NCBI RefSeq assembly: GCF_002259795.1
Contig: NZ_MWXA01000005.1
Coordinates: 1 to 64,000 of the forward strand
Length of the DNA stretch: 64,000 nucleotides
From: Bifidobacterium aquikefiri
GTDB lineage: Bacteria; Actinomycetota; Actinomycetes; Actinomycetales; Bifidobacteriaceae
Direction: 5' to 3'
The notes beneath the pieces are model-generated. The model worked only from the letters and a program-made list of their open reading frames with translations, did not search any database and had not been told where the DNA came from. Both the position numbers and the translations under genes were made by a program. Numbering within the stretch: the stretch's first letter is position 1; each line of letters begins with the position of its first letter. Below, in pieces: positions 57,279-63,050 of this stretch.

Positions 57279-57400
57279 TCTCCGCCCATTCCATGTGAGT
57301 TACTCCACACATACAACCCCCCGACTCATAGACGAAACGACTATTGTGGTATTCCCAAGGGGATGCCACAGGTCAAGGGTCTTATGAATCGAGGGGTTTC

Positions 57401-58387
57401 ATGTCTCCAACAGGTGAAAAATTTGGCGCGCGTGAGTTGCGCAAAATTCAGGATCAGCAGATGCGCGAGCAGTCCAAACATCATAGACGCGACAAGATGC
57501 GAATGGTGCGTAAGGAATCTTCTGAGTTGAGCTCCATCTGGGATATTGATCCCGATGTTGCCTTGAGATTTCATGCGGGCCTGATTCTTGGGCAATTGGA
57601 CTGCGGGTCAACCCCCGGATTCGAAGGTCGAAAGGCAGACGCCAAGGAATTTGTTTCGTTAAGCTCTTATGAAATCAACAGCTTTCAAGAACAGCTGTAT
57701 GCGAATGGCATCAAAGGTTCACACAGGCGGATGCTGATTATCTTGCAAGGCATGGATACATCCGGCAAGGGCAGCATGGTCGAGCATGTGTTTAGCCAGT
57801 TAAGCCCTATGGGAATCCATTATCACGGATTTGCAGCACCAAGCCAAGAAGAACTCAATCATGACTACCTGTGGCGGATTCGTCGAGAATTGCCAAAAGA
57901 TGGCTGGATTTCAATCTTCGACCGATCGCAATACGAGGATATTGTTATGCCGCGCATTTACGGAACCTATCCTCGCACTATCTGGGAATCTCGCTATGAC
58001 GAGATCAACGCCTTCGAGCACCGTCTGGTTGATGATGGATGCTCCATCATCAAGATATTTCTCTGCATTTCCAAAGATTTTCAGAAGAAGCGATTCCTGA
58101 AGCGACTCGACGATCCGACCAAATTCTGGAAGTTCGATCCGAGCGATCTCAAAGCTCGCTCACACTGGGATGACTACATGAATGCATGGCAGGATGTCAT
58201 GGAACGAACATCGACCAATTACGCGCCGTGGCATATCGTTCCCGCCAATCATCGCTGGTACTCCAGGGCGGTGCTTTCCCAGATACTGCGGGCGAGAATG
58301 CAAGAGATGAATCTTGCATGGCCACCCGCCGACTTCAATGTCGATATGGTCAAACACCAGCTCAACAATCCTGCGAGTACAGAATAA
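57401..58387 (+). CDS. ppk2: Polyphosphate kinase 2 family protein
   Basis: 328 residues, P-loop kinase fold. It moves phosphate between polyphosphate and nucleotides. Walker A is LQGMDTSGKGSMVEH and Walker B is ISIFDRSQYEDIVMPR. A lid module with KKRFLKRLDDPTKFWKF is the family hallmark, and APWHIVPANHRWYSRAV follows. The class, and thus NDP or NMP preference, is not certain. The start is ATG 57401 with GAGGGG upstream. A GU-rich hairpin GTGGTATTCCC/GGGGATGCCAC (about 57346-57370) lies just before it. Confidence 0.93.
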   Translation: MSPTGEKFGARELRKIQDQQMREQSKHHRRDKMRMVRKESSELSSIWDIDPDVALRFHAGLILGQLDCGSTPGFEGRKADAKEFVSLSSYEINSFQEQLYANGIKGSHRRMLIILQGMDTSGKGSMVEHVFSQLSPMGIHYHGFAAPSQEELNHDYLWRIRRELPKDGWISIFDRSQYEDIVMPRIYGTYPRTIWESRYDEINAFEHRLVDDGCSIIKIFLCISKDFQKKRFLKRLDDPTKFWKFDPSDLKARSHWDDYMNAWQDVMERTSTNYAPWHIVPANHRWYSRAVLSQILRARMQEMNLAWPPADFNVDMVKHQLNNPASTE

Positions 58388-58571
58388 AGATTCTGTGTCC
58401 ATGACGACGCCAGTACAGTGATAACGAATTCAAATGGGCAAATTCTCTGGTCTTGAGCCTTTACAGGAAACTTTGCACGAACTGATATCCAGAGTTTGAT
58501 ATTCTGTTGATTGTGAAATTGGACATGCAAGGGCTGCATAGTACGAGCTGCATAACATGAATGGATGACTT

Positions 58572-59330
58572 ATGGAAACTGCTTCAATTGTGAAGAATGC
58601 CCCACTCATTAAGTCGCAATGCGTTCTGAGATGGAACAAAGTCGAGGCCGATTCAGCTCTCGATCCACATGAATTCAAGACCACATTTGCAAAATTTCAT
58701 GTTGAGGGTATAACCGATTTGGATTCCGAATGGATGATTCCCCGAAGAATGGTTGAACGAGTTCCACATAATCGACCGTTCTATCACCTGTTCTATAGCT
58801 TCAAGGAAATAGGCGTTGATGTTGCCTTGGCTCACAATGAGGTGCGCATTTCCAGTGATAACTCCTATCAGACTTGGGTGGATTTCAGAGATGAAATTGA
58901 TTTGGTGGTCAACGTACTTTCGGCTGTATTGGGGAAAGGCGATCATCATATTGATCTTATACGGCTTCAATATGTCGATGCTTTCCGCAGAGATATCTTG
59001 CGAGGGAAAAGCCCTGCAGACTTCGTTGAGGACGATCTGGGAATAACCATTACCCTGCCTCACCGCTTGTCGATAACAACAGGACAATTCACGACGCTGT
59101 CAACATTCATCGACTATCTGGCAGAGATTGATGAAAGCACTGATTTTAAACTCTCCATCGGCGAAGCAAAGATTGATCCAGATGAAAACGTCGCCATTTG
59201 TGATACGACTGTCATACGGAAGCAGCGATGCTCTTTCGATAGCATATCTGGCATATTGAACCTGATGCATGATGTTTCACACGATTTCTTCATTCGATTG
59301 ATACAGCCAATCTCTAACAGATTCGAATAA
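58572..59330 (+). CDS. TIGR04255-like protein, first gene of a three-gene cassette
   Basis: 252 residues, soluble, more AT-rich than the housekeeping neighbours. The opening NAPLIKSQCVLRWNKVE, the middle VALAHNEVRISSDNSYQTW and IDLIRLQYVDAF resemble the pattern of TIGR04255 proteins. These are an uncharacterised family with a beta-rich N-terminal part and a conserved arginine-based core. No catalytic motif or membrane segment is visible. The ATG at 58572 has no strong ribosome-binding site. The next two genes follow within 10 and 6 bp, so they form one operon. The family call is from memory of sequence patterns and is moderately sure. Confidence 0.55.
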   Translation: METASIVKNAPLIKSQCVLRWNKVEADSALDPHEFKTTFAKFHVEGITDLDSEWMIPRRMVERVPHNRPFYHLFYSFKEIGVDVALAHNEVRISSDNSYQTWVDFRDEIDLVVNVLSAVLGKGDHHIDLIRLQYVDAFRRDILRGKSPADFVEDDLGITITLPHRLSITTGQFTTLSTFIDYLAEIDESTDFKLSIGEAKIDPDENVAICDTTVIRKQRCSFDSISGILNLMHDVSHDFFIRLIQPISNRFE

Positions 59331-59340
59331 AGGGGTGCCT

Positions 59341-59898
59341 ATGACTGCGACATCGTTTGCTCCATATGTGTCGCCATTACGAGAGACGAGCGACTATCAT
59401 CCGATTGCCAAAGTTAAGCAGCGGTTTGACATGGTGAACAGACCACAGATCGATGATGTATGTGATGAGTTCACCCTGGATTCACAACTATTCTATGACT
59501 CTTATGATTCCAGCCTGATTCAATCGCGTGAGCGGTATGATTTCGATATAACTTTTAATTTACGCGGCAAGGCGTTGGAAACTATTCGTGATTTCTCCGG
59601 TCTTGATGAAGAAGAACGACCTACGTATAAGTCTATGCAACATGCCTATCGGCTTGTGGATATTTTGGAAAATGTTGGTTTGCTAGACAAGCTTCAAATC
59701 TGGCCAACCGATAATGGGACGATTGAGTTTGGCAGAAGAATAGATGAAAGGCATCAATTCGTATTGGAAACTGGTAACAATGGCGTTCGTGGTCTTATCT
59801 TCGTTGGAGAAACAGAATATGAAATTGGAGAACAAACTTCCGAAAATGAACTTTCCCAATATCTCGCTGTTTTTTTGCATGATGTTCGGCGGAAATAA
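59341..59898 (+). CDS. Hypothetical protein, second gene of the TIGR04255 cassette
   Basis: 185 residues. I do not recognise a named domain. The N-terminal half is mixed and acidic, with VNRPQIDDVCDEFTLDSQ. The C-terminal half is beta-like, with LQIWPTDNGTIEFGRRID, HQFVLETGNNGVRGLIFVG and a final helix SQYLAVFLHDVRRK. Partner genes of TIGR04255 often have this layout, a Gly-rich beta hairpin near the C-terminus. AAAGGGG lies five bases before the ATG at 59341, and the gap to the first gene is 10 bp. Confidence 0.6.
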   Translation: MTATSFAPYVSPLRETSDYHPIAKVKQRFDMVNRPQIDDVCDEFTLDSQLFYDSYDSSLIQSRERYDFDITFNLRGKALETIRDFSGLDEEERPTYKSMQHAYRLVDILENVGLLDKLQIWPTDNGTIEFGRRIDERHQFVLETGNNGVRGLIFVGETEYEIGEQTSENELSQYLAVFLHDVRRK

Positions 59899-59904
59899 GA
59901 AGTC

Positions 59905-60426
59905 ATGCAAGTGCAACAAGTCCCTGCGATAGCTGATTCTGAGATTCTGGCCAGATATATTCGTGATCCCCAGCATTTCCACAATAGAAGAAGGCATCAG
60001 AAGAAAAGGGGAGAAACGCTCGACTTTGTAGATTTGATTCCATTCAGACTGTTCCGTCCTCAAACTGGCGAGCAAGTCAGCTCTTTGGTGCGCAGAAGGT
60101 ATGGCAACGCTGACACTGCCATGCACGCTGCCGACGTAGATGCCGTTGCATTTATAGAATTTGAAGCTGCTTGTACTCGACTCGTTGAAGTCAGTGTTGA
60201 GAGCGGAATCGTTTCGCTCTCCGTCAAAGCTGATCCGTTGGAAGGTTTTGACTCGCACGCGATTCTGTTTTCTCAAGAAATTGATGTGAAGCGTTATCCC
60301 AAGCAGCGTGGGGAAGAAATGGATAACGAGTTGAGAAAGCTGCTTACGCAACTCTATGAGAAGCTGTTTGCGATGTGTGGCGTACCTCAGTTGATTCCTG
60401 AAACGTTGGGAGAAGTAACAAGCTGA
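59905..60426 (+). CDS. Hypothetical protein, third gene of the TIGR04255 cassette
   Basis: 173 residues. The N-terminal part is basic (HNRRRHQKKRGE) and then LIPFRLFRPQTGEQVSSLVRRR. The C-terminal part has a VKADPLEGFDSHAILFSQ segment ending in a helix with LRKLLTQLYEKLF. The His-Ala-x-Ile piece resembles a motif I associate with the third partner in TIGR04255 clusters, but this is only pattern memory. It starts 6 bp after the second gene. Function is unknown. Confidence 0.55.
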   Translation: MQVQQVPAIADSEILARYIRDPQHFHNRRRHQKKRGETLDFVDLIPFRLFRPQTGEQVSSLVRRRYGNADTAMHAADVDAVAFIEFEAACTRLVEVSVESGIVSLSVKADPLEGFDSHAILFSQEIDVKRYPKQRGEEMDNELRKLLTQLYEKLFAMCGVPQLIPETLGEVTS

Positions 60427-60639
60427 GTATTCTATATGGCTGCTGGTGATGCCACAGTAATGATATTTCTTGGTATCTTGAAAGTCGTGTAAGGACTATC
60501 GGGTACTCGACACGACTGACCATTGAGGTCTCCAGGAGACAAGCCGAGCTCGCGTTCGATATCAGCGGGAGAAGCATCGGGTTCCAGACCGACCGTATGC
60601 AAATAAAGTACCATTTTCGACATAACCGCTTCGAGATGA

Positions 60640-60933
60640 CCATATGCCGTTTTAGGAGAAATATATAGCCTCAACAATTTTTCCAAGCCGGACTTTGTTG
60701 ATGATTACCTGCAAACCCATGTGGTCAACTGGGGTAAGGATGGCATCGAGAACTATGAGTTCATCAAATCTAAAATTGCGAGCGAGGCGCTGGCGAAAAA
60801 GGAATTTGCAAAATCGATATGGTTCGAAAAAAATAAAATAGCAATATCGGATGATTACAAGGCAATTGCGCAGGAGCAGAAACCGGCAGCATCTGAAGCT
60901 GCATCGAAAAGCGCTGACACTAAAAAGCAGTAG
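60640..60933 (+). pseudogene. 5'-truncated gene fragment
   Basis: A frame open from 60640 (just after a stop at 60637-60639) to the TAG at 60931-60933, about 97 codons. It reads like the C-terminal end of a larger protein: a folded-looking part (KPDFVDDYLQTHVVNWGKDG, IASEALAKKEFAKSIWFEKN), then an Ala/Ser/Lys-rich tail. There is no good start or ribosome-binding site at its 5' end; GTG 60721 is the first in-frame candidate. I cannot name the parent protein. It lies in a 690-bp stretch without any intact gene. Confidence 0.35.
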
Positions 60934-60950
60934 GGCTATTGCAGAACAGG

Positions 60951-60991
60951 CCATGCAGATGCTCTCATGTGTGATGAGAGCATCTGCATGG
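60951..60991. terminator. 18-bp perfect hairpin after the accessory block
   Basis: CCATGCAGATGCTCTCAT (60951-60968) pairs perfectly with 60974-60991 around a 5-base loop. It lies 17 bp after the gene fragment's stop. There is no U-run on the plus strand; on the minus strand a T-rich stretch is a little further away. Confidence 0.85.
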
Positions 60992-61028
60992 ATGAAAGCC
61001 AATCCTGTTTCCATATATTCATACGATG

Positions 61029-61082
61029 GGAAAGTATAGTGCCATCCACGCTGCAACTTGCATGGATGGCACTATACTTTCC
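61029..61082. terminator. 20-bp perfect hairpin between the accessory block and GH13
   Basis: GGAAAGTATAGTGCCATCCA (61029-61048) pairs perfectly with 61063-61082 around a 14-base loop. It probably ends the minus-strand glucosidase transcript and anything reading in from the left. Confidence 0.9.
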
Positions 61083-61118
61083 GCGTGTTTTGAAACTACG
61101 AGATTACATACTCCGTGA

Positions 61119-63050
61119 CTATCCGAGCATTATCCATGCAGTAGCATCTTGTGGCAGCTTGCCGTCATCGTTGAGTGGTGTCGATGTGAGTATGACTGTT
61201 CCGGTGGGCAATGACACCGACTCTGAGCCGAAATTGGTGATGCTTGCCCAACCGTTGGCACGTTTGTATGCAATGACTCCACCGAGTTGTCCATCGGCAC
61301 CATCGTGAATCGAAGAGGTCTTGTCGTAGCCTTCAAGCCAGGTGAGCGTGGTGTTGTTCGTCTGCAGTTCGTGACGAAGCTGCAGGGCCCTCTGGTACAG
61401 ATGAAGCATTGACTGAGGATCGCTTGATTCGACATCTGCCGCGAAATGTGCATACCAATCCGGCTGCGGCAGATGAGTCTCCTCGGCAACGTGGTTCGAC
61501 CCGTCTGTCTTCTTGCTTGGCGAGAATCCAAAACTGCCGGATCCATCCTTCGGATTGATATGTCCAAAGCGGGAAATCACATCCTGCGTCACAGAGAATT
61601 CATGGACATCGACTGCATTCAGGATGGGGTGGTCTGATTCGACCCATGGCAGTGGCACTCGGCAACCGTCGCGACCCTTGCTTGAAGCTGCACCCGAAGT
61701 GCCGAAGCTCTCGGGATCCTGCAGCTGATTCCAAGGAATGTCTGGTACTTCAAACAAGCCAAGCTCTTCACCCTGATATACATAGGCGGAACCTGGCAAC
61801 GCCAATTCAAGCATGATTGCTGCTCGTGATCGTCGTGTCCCCAGAGCTCGGTTCTCTATGAATGAACTGCCGTCTCGTAAGACCCAATCCTTTGCCTGCG
61901 TGTGATAGAGCCCATTTTTTGTAGGCACTTGAGGCAGCGCATATCTGGTGGCGTGACGAATCACATCGTGGTTCGACATCACCCATGTTGAGGTGGAGCC
62001 TGAACGGGCCGCCTGTTCGATGCCTTCTTCGATGGCCTGATGTATTTCGTTGCGAATCCAGTTCTTCTTGGCAAACTCGAAGTTGAAGATTTGCCCAAGC
62101 TCTTTCGGACTCGAATACAGATATTGTCTCGCTGGATTTACCCATGCTTCTGCAACGGCGAAACGAGGGGGATCATATTCATCGAAGACCGTGCGCCACT
62201 GCCTGAAGATTTCGTGAACCTCGTCACGATCATACAGCGGGTGGCTGCCATCTATTGGCAGCGGAAGCGTCGCGAGGGCGCTCCAGTCATTCAAATCGGT
62301 GCGGTTGAGATCCTTGGCGAGACCGTGCGCAACATCGACTCGGAACCCATCGGCTCCATGATCGCTCCAGAATCGCAGTGTCTTGATGAAGTCCTCTCGC
62401 ACATCACGATTGTCCCAATTGAAATCGGGCTGTTCCTTTGCGAAGAGATGCAGATACCATTGACCGTCTGCTACGCGAGTCCATGCAGAACCACCGAAAT
62501 TGCCAATCCAGTCAGTAGGAGGCAGCTCACCTTGAGCTCCGCGTCCGTCGCGGAAAATATAGCGCTGCCTTGCTGCCGAATTCGGTTCAGCAATGAGCGC
62601 CTCCTGGAACCAGGGATGCAGATTCGAAGAATGATTTGGCACAATATCGACAACGATCTTCAGACCGTGGGCATGGGCGGCGGCAGATAGGTCGTCAAAA
62701 TCAGCCATTGTTCCGAGTTTGGGATCAACGTTGCGGTAGTTTGCAACGTCGTATCCACCATCGGCCAATGCTGAAGGATAGAACGGTGACAGCCATATGC
62801 AGTCAACGCCCAGTTGCTGCAGATAATCGATCTTGCTCGTGATTCCGGCTATGTCACCGAGTCCAGAACCCGTCGAGTCTTTGAATGAACGAGGGTAGAT
62901 CTGATAGACAACGGCCTGCTTCCACCATGTCTGGGGAGAACTGGCATTGAGATCGGCCAATTCCAATGGTTGATTGTTGCCAGTTTCTGAGGTATCTATA
63001 AAAGCGCTTGCATCAGAGTTATTTGCTACTGAAGCGTTAGGTAAGTTCAT
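61119..63050 (-). CDS. GH13 alpha-glucosidase / oligo-1,6-glucosidase
   Basis: 643 residues, no signal peptide, so intracellular. After a ~38-residue polar N-terminus the barrel begins at WWKQAVVYQIYPRSFKD. Conserved regions: VVDIVPNHSS (region I), GFRVDVAHGLA with nucleophile Asp239, FAVAEAWV with acid/base Glu301, and VMSNHDVIRHATRY with Asp362. It should release glucose from alpha-linked oligosaccharides; linkage preference (1,4 or 1,6, sucrose, trehalulose) is not settled. GAGGAG eight bases before the ATG. It is divergent from the LacI regulator, whose sites lie at 63003-63012 and 63125-63144. Confidence 0.92.
   Translation of the reverse strand: MNLPNASVANNSDASAFIDTSETGNNQPLELADLNASSPQTWWKQAVVYQIYPRSFKDSTGSGLGDIAGITSKIDYLQQLGVDCIWLSPFYPSALADGGYDVANYRNVDPKLGTMADFDDLSAAAHAHGLKIVVDIVPNHSSNLHPWFQEALIAEPNSAARQRYIFRDGRGAQGELPPTDWIGNFGGSAWTRVADGQWYLHLFAKEQPDFNWDNRDVREDFIKTLRFWSDHGADGFRVDVAHGLAKDLNRTDLNDWSALATLPLPIDGSHPLYDRDEVHEIFRQWRTVFDEYDPPRFAVAEAWVNPARQYLYSSPKELGQIFNFEFAKKNWIRNEIHQAIEEGIEQAARSGSTSTWVMSNHDVIRHATRYALPQVPTKNGLYHTQAKDWVLRDGSSFIENRALGTRRSRAAIMLELALPGSAYVYQGEELGLFEVPDIPWNQLQDPESFGTSGAASSKGRDGCRVPLPWVESDHPILNAVDVHEFSVTQDVISRFGHINPKDGSGSFGFSPSKKTDGSNHVAEETHLPQPDWYAHFAADVESSDPQSMLHLYQRALQLRHELQTNNTTLTWLEGYDKTSSIHDGADGQLGGVIAYKRANGWASITNFGSESVSLPTGTVILTSTPLNDDGKLPQDATAWIMLG
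63002..63012. promoter_or_regulatory. Candidate LacI-family operator inside the glucosidase start
   Basis: AAGCGCTT (63002-63009) is a perfect 8-bp palindrome. It sits in AGCGCTTGCA (63003-63012), a 10-base sequence repeated exactly at 63132-63141. It lies about 14 codons inside the GH13 gene and may serve as a secondary operator. Confidence 0.45.

Follow-up and report, generated by a model that had tools for sequence, protein, structure and literature searches.

A TIGR04255-led three-gene insert in Bifidobacterium aquikefiri as a candidate stress or defence module

What is the role of a tight cluster of three bifidobacterial genes, two of which match no family in Pfam, NCBIfam or PADLOC? The cluster lies on the forward strand of Bifidobacterium aquikefiri contig NZ_MWXA01000005.1, within positions 1 to 64,000 (hereafter "the window"). 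An earlier reading of the letters alone (the sequence-only reading) had described it as a horizontally moving operon and a candidate defence or stress system. We consider in turn its anatomy and setting, the operons formed by its relatives, and the explanations that compete for it.

Anatomy and setting of the three genes

Gene 1 (58572-59330, + strand) encodes a protein of 252 aa, gene 2 (59335-59898, +) one of 187 aa from a GTG start, and gene 3 (59905-60426, +) one of 173 aa. The likelier start of gene 2 is the ATG at 59341 (185 aa), behind AAAGGGG; with this start, the gaps are 10 bp (genes 1/2) and 6 bp (genes 2/3), the values given by the sequence-only reading. None of the three frames, which share one strand, is interrupted; a plausible ribosome site is present, and the three genes are probably co-transcribed. 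An antisense ORF of 222 aa (59683-60351, -) spans the ends of genes 2 and 3 and is probably due to chance. Genes 2 and 3, which had been read as lacking any recognised domain, matched no family in Pfam, NCBIfam or PADLOC at E ≤ 10, and gene 1 matched none in PADLOC at the same threshold. In PHROGs, the matches of genes 2 and 3 did not rise above chance level (E 0.075 and 0.29), and that of gene 1, to phrog_5464, was weak (E 0.0015). A Pfam search placed no HEPN domain in any of the three.

The trio sits in an insert of 2.73 kb (58388-61118) between the ends of ppk2 (polyphosphate kinase 2; 57344-58387, +; PF03976, E 8.5e-61) and an alpha-glucosidase-like GH13 gene (61119-63050, -; named from sequence reading). 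The insert was delimited by synteny with four relatives (L196-L199). Six of the 27 genus genomes have a match to ppk2, and the copies in two genus relatives are 85% and 78% identical. In four of the five relatives with ppk2 (L196-L199), ppk2 and GH13 are convergent and directly adjacent, with ~59-192 bp between them as against 2.73 kb here; the site is empty. In the fifth (L195), ppk2 is followed by a helicase-like gene, again named from reading. The adjacency in four of five relatives implies that the trio is an insert or, less simply, that it was lost in the others. As a single concatenated query, the trio matched its own genome and none of the other 26 of the genus at E ≤ 0.001, so that no fixed, core position was found. 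The difference in composition noted earlier is also real: GC is 0.444 in the insert and 0.521 in the window, and the GC3 of genes 1, 2 and 3 (0.456, 0.380 and 0.462) is below that of all 43 window ORFs of at least 150 aa compared, the next being 0.463. The insert is accessory and was probably acquired horizontally or is mobile, in keeping with the module proposed from sequence.

Downstream of the trio, still inside the insert, is an open gene fragment of 88 aa (60667-60933, +). The sequence-only reading had placed a truncated gene here; the fragment is present and may be a truncated gene. A search of 151 family genomes with it and a second fragment gave matches in two, the genome of origin and one more (E 0.008), and it has no convincing relative among these 151. 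The two strong hairpins reported downstream are present, one a perfect inverted repeat of 18 bp with a 5-nt loop (60951-60991), the other of 23 bp (96%) with an 8-nt loop (61029-61082). A terminator scan called neither, and one relative (L199) has its own hairpin in the same convergent ppk2-GH13 gap; hence, the hairpins need not belong to the insert. Scars of recombination were not detected: a repeat scan gave only imperfect direct repeats of 14-15 bp, and a word search across the insert junctions gave no shared word. Rfam gave 0 matches, and counts of promoter-like and terminator-like sequences were at or below chance.

Gene 1 and the operons of its relatives

Gene 1 is a TIGR04255 protein, as had been suspected. 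It matches the NCBIfam model at E 3.5e-13 (49.9 bits, cut-off 30) over profile positions 3-244 of 252, and is thus a full-length member. TIGR04255 is distributed sporadically: it occurs in 1 of 151 family genomes (the own genome), 7 of 248 genomes of the order, 26 of 296 phylum genomes (own genome counted), and 31 of 329 genomes of a class centred on a matching genome. Close relatives of proteins 1-3 were not found in the plasmids or viral contigs searched, and those of gene 1 were not found in the phages or genome contigs searched. No open-licence PMC full text was found on TIGR04255, also under the names IPR026349, CHP04255 and sporadTIGR04255, and none of the papers listed by broader searches of this literature concerns such an operon, as far as titles and the starts of abstracts indicate. 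Accordingly, a characterised function for a homologue did not emerge from the open-licence literature searched.

The predicted fold of gene 1 is a likely duplicated saddle. The AlphaFold2 model, made with 27 relatives, has a pLDDT of 79.1 and a pTM of 0.80, and shows a beta-alpha-beta3-alpha pattern repeated twice. Foldseek returned nine PDB matches at E ≤ 0.001, all of them TBP or TBP-containing complexes; the best had E 1.2e-4 and probability 1.00, but a low TM of 0.28/0.35. A giant-virus TBP was among the viral structure matches (E 1.2e-5). With VIA-align, guanido kinases were at the top (Z 8.3, rmsd 4.0, 181 residues), and TBP (Z 6.3) was below them, in or near the background range. A duplicated saddle is thus likely, TBP and guanido kinases are its candidate likenesses, and the relation to TBP is a lead. 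The gene 1 sequence had no match among solved structures, and profiles compared with solved structures gave best E values of 1.5 for TIGR04255 and 0.58 for the g2 type, and nothing for the g3 type (types described below). Of the approaches that had been suggested for the trio, profile searches and fold prediction gave a family and a saddle model for gene 1, and the Pfam, NCBIfam and PADLOC models matched neither gene 2 nor gene 3.

In Actinomycetota, TIGR04255 is followed at 47 of 62 loci by a same-strand ORF that starts -60 to +20 bp from its stop, a count that rests on mechanical ORF choice and that GC-rich genomes may inflate. The partners vary. Two unclassified partners are found at 25 of the 62 loci; at 15, the second place is taken, often after an HTH protein, by a protein whose motif is TQTCD or QHPC-like. 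Proteins of the TQTCD-like kind, ~190-310 aa long, occur in L036, L038, L040, L022, L012 and similar loci, and the four scanned matched no Pfam model. Other partner sets consist of a 174-186-aa protein with a HEPN-like protein (E 0.048, sub-threshold) and of a 143-aa protein with a HicA-like protein (E 0.045, sub-threshold). Seven of the 62 loci carry a further pair, in which a protein with the motif PTxxGGVQxEW (g2 type) precedes a small protein with invariant Arg, Phe, Ser and His (R/F/S/H, or g3 type).

This last pair defines a class. The g2-type alignment is too variable for a locus search; the pattern PTxxGG.Q.EW gave 22 viral stretches and at least 116 genome stretches. After profile iteration, we sorted 110 g2-type ORFs: 33 show the order TIGR04255-g2-g3, 40 are accompanied by g3 but not TIGR04255, 5 by TIGR04255 but not g3, and 32 are alone. 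Some are cut by locus ends, and the numbers are not natural frequencies. Eight duplicates were dropped before the count, two entries that look like one contig (L048 and L104) are both counted, and 11 of the 110 (6 among the 33 trios) had been collected earlier, in searches with TIGR04255, of plasmids or with profiles; of the 99 g2-type ORFs from motif scans, 27 are part of the trio. At E ≤ 0.01, a g2-type profile had matches in 13 of the 396 phylum genomes searched, the weakest of these matches probably being due to chance. The TIGR04255 gene followed by genes for a PTxxGGVQxEW protein and a small R/F/S/H protein is a recurrent class across several phyla, and the partner layout that the sequence-only reading associated with the family does recur. 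The parts can also be joined: a natural fusion of 517 aa (L188:6408-7961, -) combines OB-containing, g2-type and g3-type parts. Its AlphaFold2 model (pLDDT 85.0, pTM 0.52) has a predicted OB-fold at residues 172-258 (best Z 9.9), and OB-folds lead its VIA-align matches. The OB-fold often binds nucleic acid.

Do genes 2 and 3 belong to this class? The profiles used to rank the window ORFs were built without window sequences. For gene 3 the answer is probably yes, as a divergent member of the R/F/S/H family. It was first of 206 window ORFs with the third-family profile (E 0.0013; next 0.8) and first of 1503 sequences including shuffles (E 0.0098), and in the family alignment it retains all four invariant residues. 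Its count of conserved columns was equalled by 2 of 150 shuffles and its hhalign score by none of 150. Similar comparisons make gene 2 a possible, divergent relation of the PTxxGGVQxEW proteins. It too was first of 206 window ORFs with the second-family profile, though the E value was 1.0. Four shuffled sequences scored better than gene 2; its hhalign score was reached by 1 of 150 shuffles. When 40 window ORFs close in length were compared, one equalled the hhalign score of either gene, and this one may be the gene itself. The conserved-column test was negative for gene 2 (5 of 12 columns, equalled by 26 of 150 shuffles), and WPTDNGTIEF stands in place of the motif. Searches of the own genome with the g2 and g3 profiles were both empty at E ≤ 10.

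The trio as a whole fits the class in size (252, 187 and 173 aa, compared with ~270, 175 and 140 aa) and in its tight, co-directed arrangement. However, a plasmid of Crinalium carries a TIGR04255-led trio of 253, 182 and 171 aa with tight gaps (L231:4983-6813, +), and neither of its partners is detectably similar to gene 2 or gene 3. It is a further partner class, and similar sizes with dissimilar partners mean that size alone does not prove class. Furthermore, gene 1 matches other TIGR04255 branches (E 1e-11) than that of the g2/g3 class. It was not among the four best window ORFs with the first class-branch profile, and the iterated class profile, which takes in other branches, does find it (E 1.3e-5). 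By these profile scores, gene 1 is from another branch, and the window module may be a hybrid.

Genomic company and competing explanations

If such modules act in defence, they might be expected to keep company with defence genes. A PADLOC search with 46 of the 47 further window ORFs that reach 100 aa gave 43 families; among the 25 of these that were listed, there was no restriction, Abi or toxin-antitoxin model, and no defence island was seen; by name, we take the families listed to be kinase, phosphatase and helicase models. The company of some relatives is different. On a Mycobacterium paragordonae plasmid (L229), a MobF relaxase gene is followed by TIGR04255, g2 and g3. CopG-VapC, a DNA methylase and Cas6 lie within 4 kb of TIGR04255 on a Thermus brockianus plasmid, as do an HNH endonuclease and a DNA methyltransferase on the Crinalium plasmid. 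On the plasmid of Rhizobium CB3060 (L232:2177-4474, +), multiubiquitin, ThiF and DUF6527 genes are close upstream of the TIGR04255 operon, and VapBC and RelE surround a g2-g3 pair on a Limnohabitans plasmid. In contrast, a g2-g3 pair on a Rhizobium leguminosarum plasmid adjoins nitrile hydratase and hypothetical genes, which counts against a general rule of defence company.

There are also links to restriction. HsdR-like proteins of 1176-1180 aa (L129:1402-4944, -; L140:1561-5097, -; L160:2582-6112, +) end in a PTxxGGVQxEW-type domain, with HsdS-like ORFs upstream (names from reading). In L092, an HsdM-like protein precedes a 375-aa protein and g3, and in L109, such a pair has HsdS-like and HsdR-like proteins on its flanks. 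All restriction-linked relatives inspected are without TIGR04255. We searched 111 of 203 flank ORFs (the two nearest, up to 1200 aa, at 57 of 61 module loci) and obtained 226 PADLOC families at E ≤ 1e-10; among the 25 of these families listed, the top count for any model was 3 of 111 ORFs, and Type I methyltransferase models occurred in up to 3 members. The 129 control ORFs gave 15 families, with BREX- and DISARM-type models and no restriction-modification model; the control loci are chance matches of the DNA pattern and hold more AT-rich marine genomes, and flank ORFs of GC-rich loci are perhaps spurious. Of the 150 control ORFs listed, 21 were omitted: those of L088 and L101, because these loci contain an ORF with the motif, and, without good cause, a single ORF of L087 and the nine at the end of the list. 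We rejected restriction linkage as proof of defence. Restriction and toxin-antitoxin genes thus accompany some relatives, and no such model is among the families listed for the window; for the earlier suggestion of a defence role, the picture is mixed.

We propose that the trio is an accessory, probably horizontally acquired, TIGR04255-led module for stress response or defence, with separate sensor, antitoxin and effector proteins. Gene 1 would be the recognition subunit, its predicted duplicated, TBP-like saddle sensing a foreign cue, such as a nucleic acid. As a small partner, gene 2 would serve for coupling or act like an antitoxin. The effector would be gene 3, with its invariant Arg, Phe, Ser and His as candidate functional residues. 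A trigger, such as phage infection, would cause the pair of gene 1 and gene 2 proteins to release or activate gene 3, and growth would stop. We put the probability of this mechanism at about 0.4, because the anatomy and accessory nature of the locus are well supported, but every step of the action is one that we infer.

Genes 2 and 3 could instead be a separate, unrelated pair that mimics the g2/g3 pair in size and order, and so represents one more class of TIGR04255 operon. This has a real though lesser chance of being right. The family statistics of both genes are weak against shuffles, in own-genome profiles and in conserved columns, gene 1 is outside the branch of the class, two unclassified partners are common (25 of 62 loci), and the same-sized Crinalium trio with its dissimilar partners is a precedent. 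Against this, the two class profiles each ranked the expected gene first of 206 window ORFs, gene 3 at E 0.0013 and gene 2 at E 1.0, and all four of R, F, S and H are present in gene 3, with a column count that 2 of 150 shuffles match.

Two further accounts seem to us improbable. Gene 1 could be a dedicated chaperone or stabiliser of an antitoxin, rather than a sensor of nucleic acid, in a tripartite toxin-antitoxin system with gene 2 as antitoxin and gene 3 as toxin. A common first gene with varying partner pairs across the 62 loci is consistent with this, as are the weakly HicA-like and HEPN-like partners (E 0.045 and 0.048) and the toxin-antitoxin genes near relatives (VapBC/RelE, CopG-VapC). 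However, the HicA and HEPN matches are under the Pfam cut-offs, and the gene order is unlike that of TAC modules, in which a SecB-like chaperone serves the antitoxin, a common third protein goes with different toxin-antitoxin pairs, and the chaperone comes last. TBP and guanido kinases led the fold matches listed for gene 1 and SecB was not among them, although this is not decisive. Alternatively, the trio could be an accessory operon that has no part in defence, or the decaying passenger of a mobile element, with no present function. The unassigned fragment downstream (60667-60933), the low GC of the insert and the lack of a defence island among the PADLOC families listed for the window would be expected of such DNA; three intact, closely spaced frames, a plausible ribosome site and a layout that recurs in several phyla would not.

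The sensor, antitoxin and effector reading can be extended beyond this locus. TIGR04255 may be an overlooked bacterial TBP-like protein that serves as the common recognition subunit of mobile defence modules, with antitoxin/effector pairs that are freely exchanged; the trio would then stand for a divergent class, and its effector for a new family marked by invariant R, F, S and H. We regard this broader idea as a long shot. Even so, if TIGR04255 is a shared TBP-like part with swappable partners, a "sporadic hypothetical" family becomes a testable component of defence or stress systems. The PTxxGGVQxEW and R/F/S/H families found here matter in themselves: they occur in many phyla, on plasmids as well as next to or within restriction-type proteins, and of the few members scanned none reaches a Pfam or NCBIfam cut-off.

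Comparison with known systems

The trio shares features with several known families and systems. Gene 1 has the full-length, above-cut-off match and the sporadic distribution of NCBIfam TIGR04255, of which it is a low-scoring, divergent member; the model is silent on partners, fold and function. The TIGR04255-PTxxGGVQxEW-R/F/S/H operons, such as that of L229, have the same gene order, similar sizes, tight spacing and the conserved gene 3 residues. Many of them have overlapping genes, unlike the window trio with its gaps, and the window gene 2 lacks most of the motif and gene 1 is of another branch. TAC modules differ from the trio in gene order, and SecB is absent from the fold matches listed. 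Type I restriction-modification is linked to g2-type parts, fused to or adjoining Hsd-like proteins, in a few relatives without TIGR04255, and no restriction model is among the PADLOC families listed for the window. A precedent for the predicted fold is found in bacterial conflict systems. According to one study (PMC3710099), TBP-like domains are fused to HEPN domains of the RNase LS type. The possible likeness to these toxins is a TBP-like fold in a bacterial conflict module, which for gene 1 is a model-based prediction. In the RNase LS toxins described there, the TBP-like part is fused to HEPN, whereas here gene 1 encodes a separate protein.
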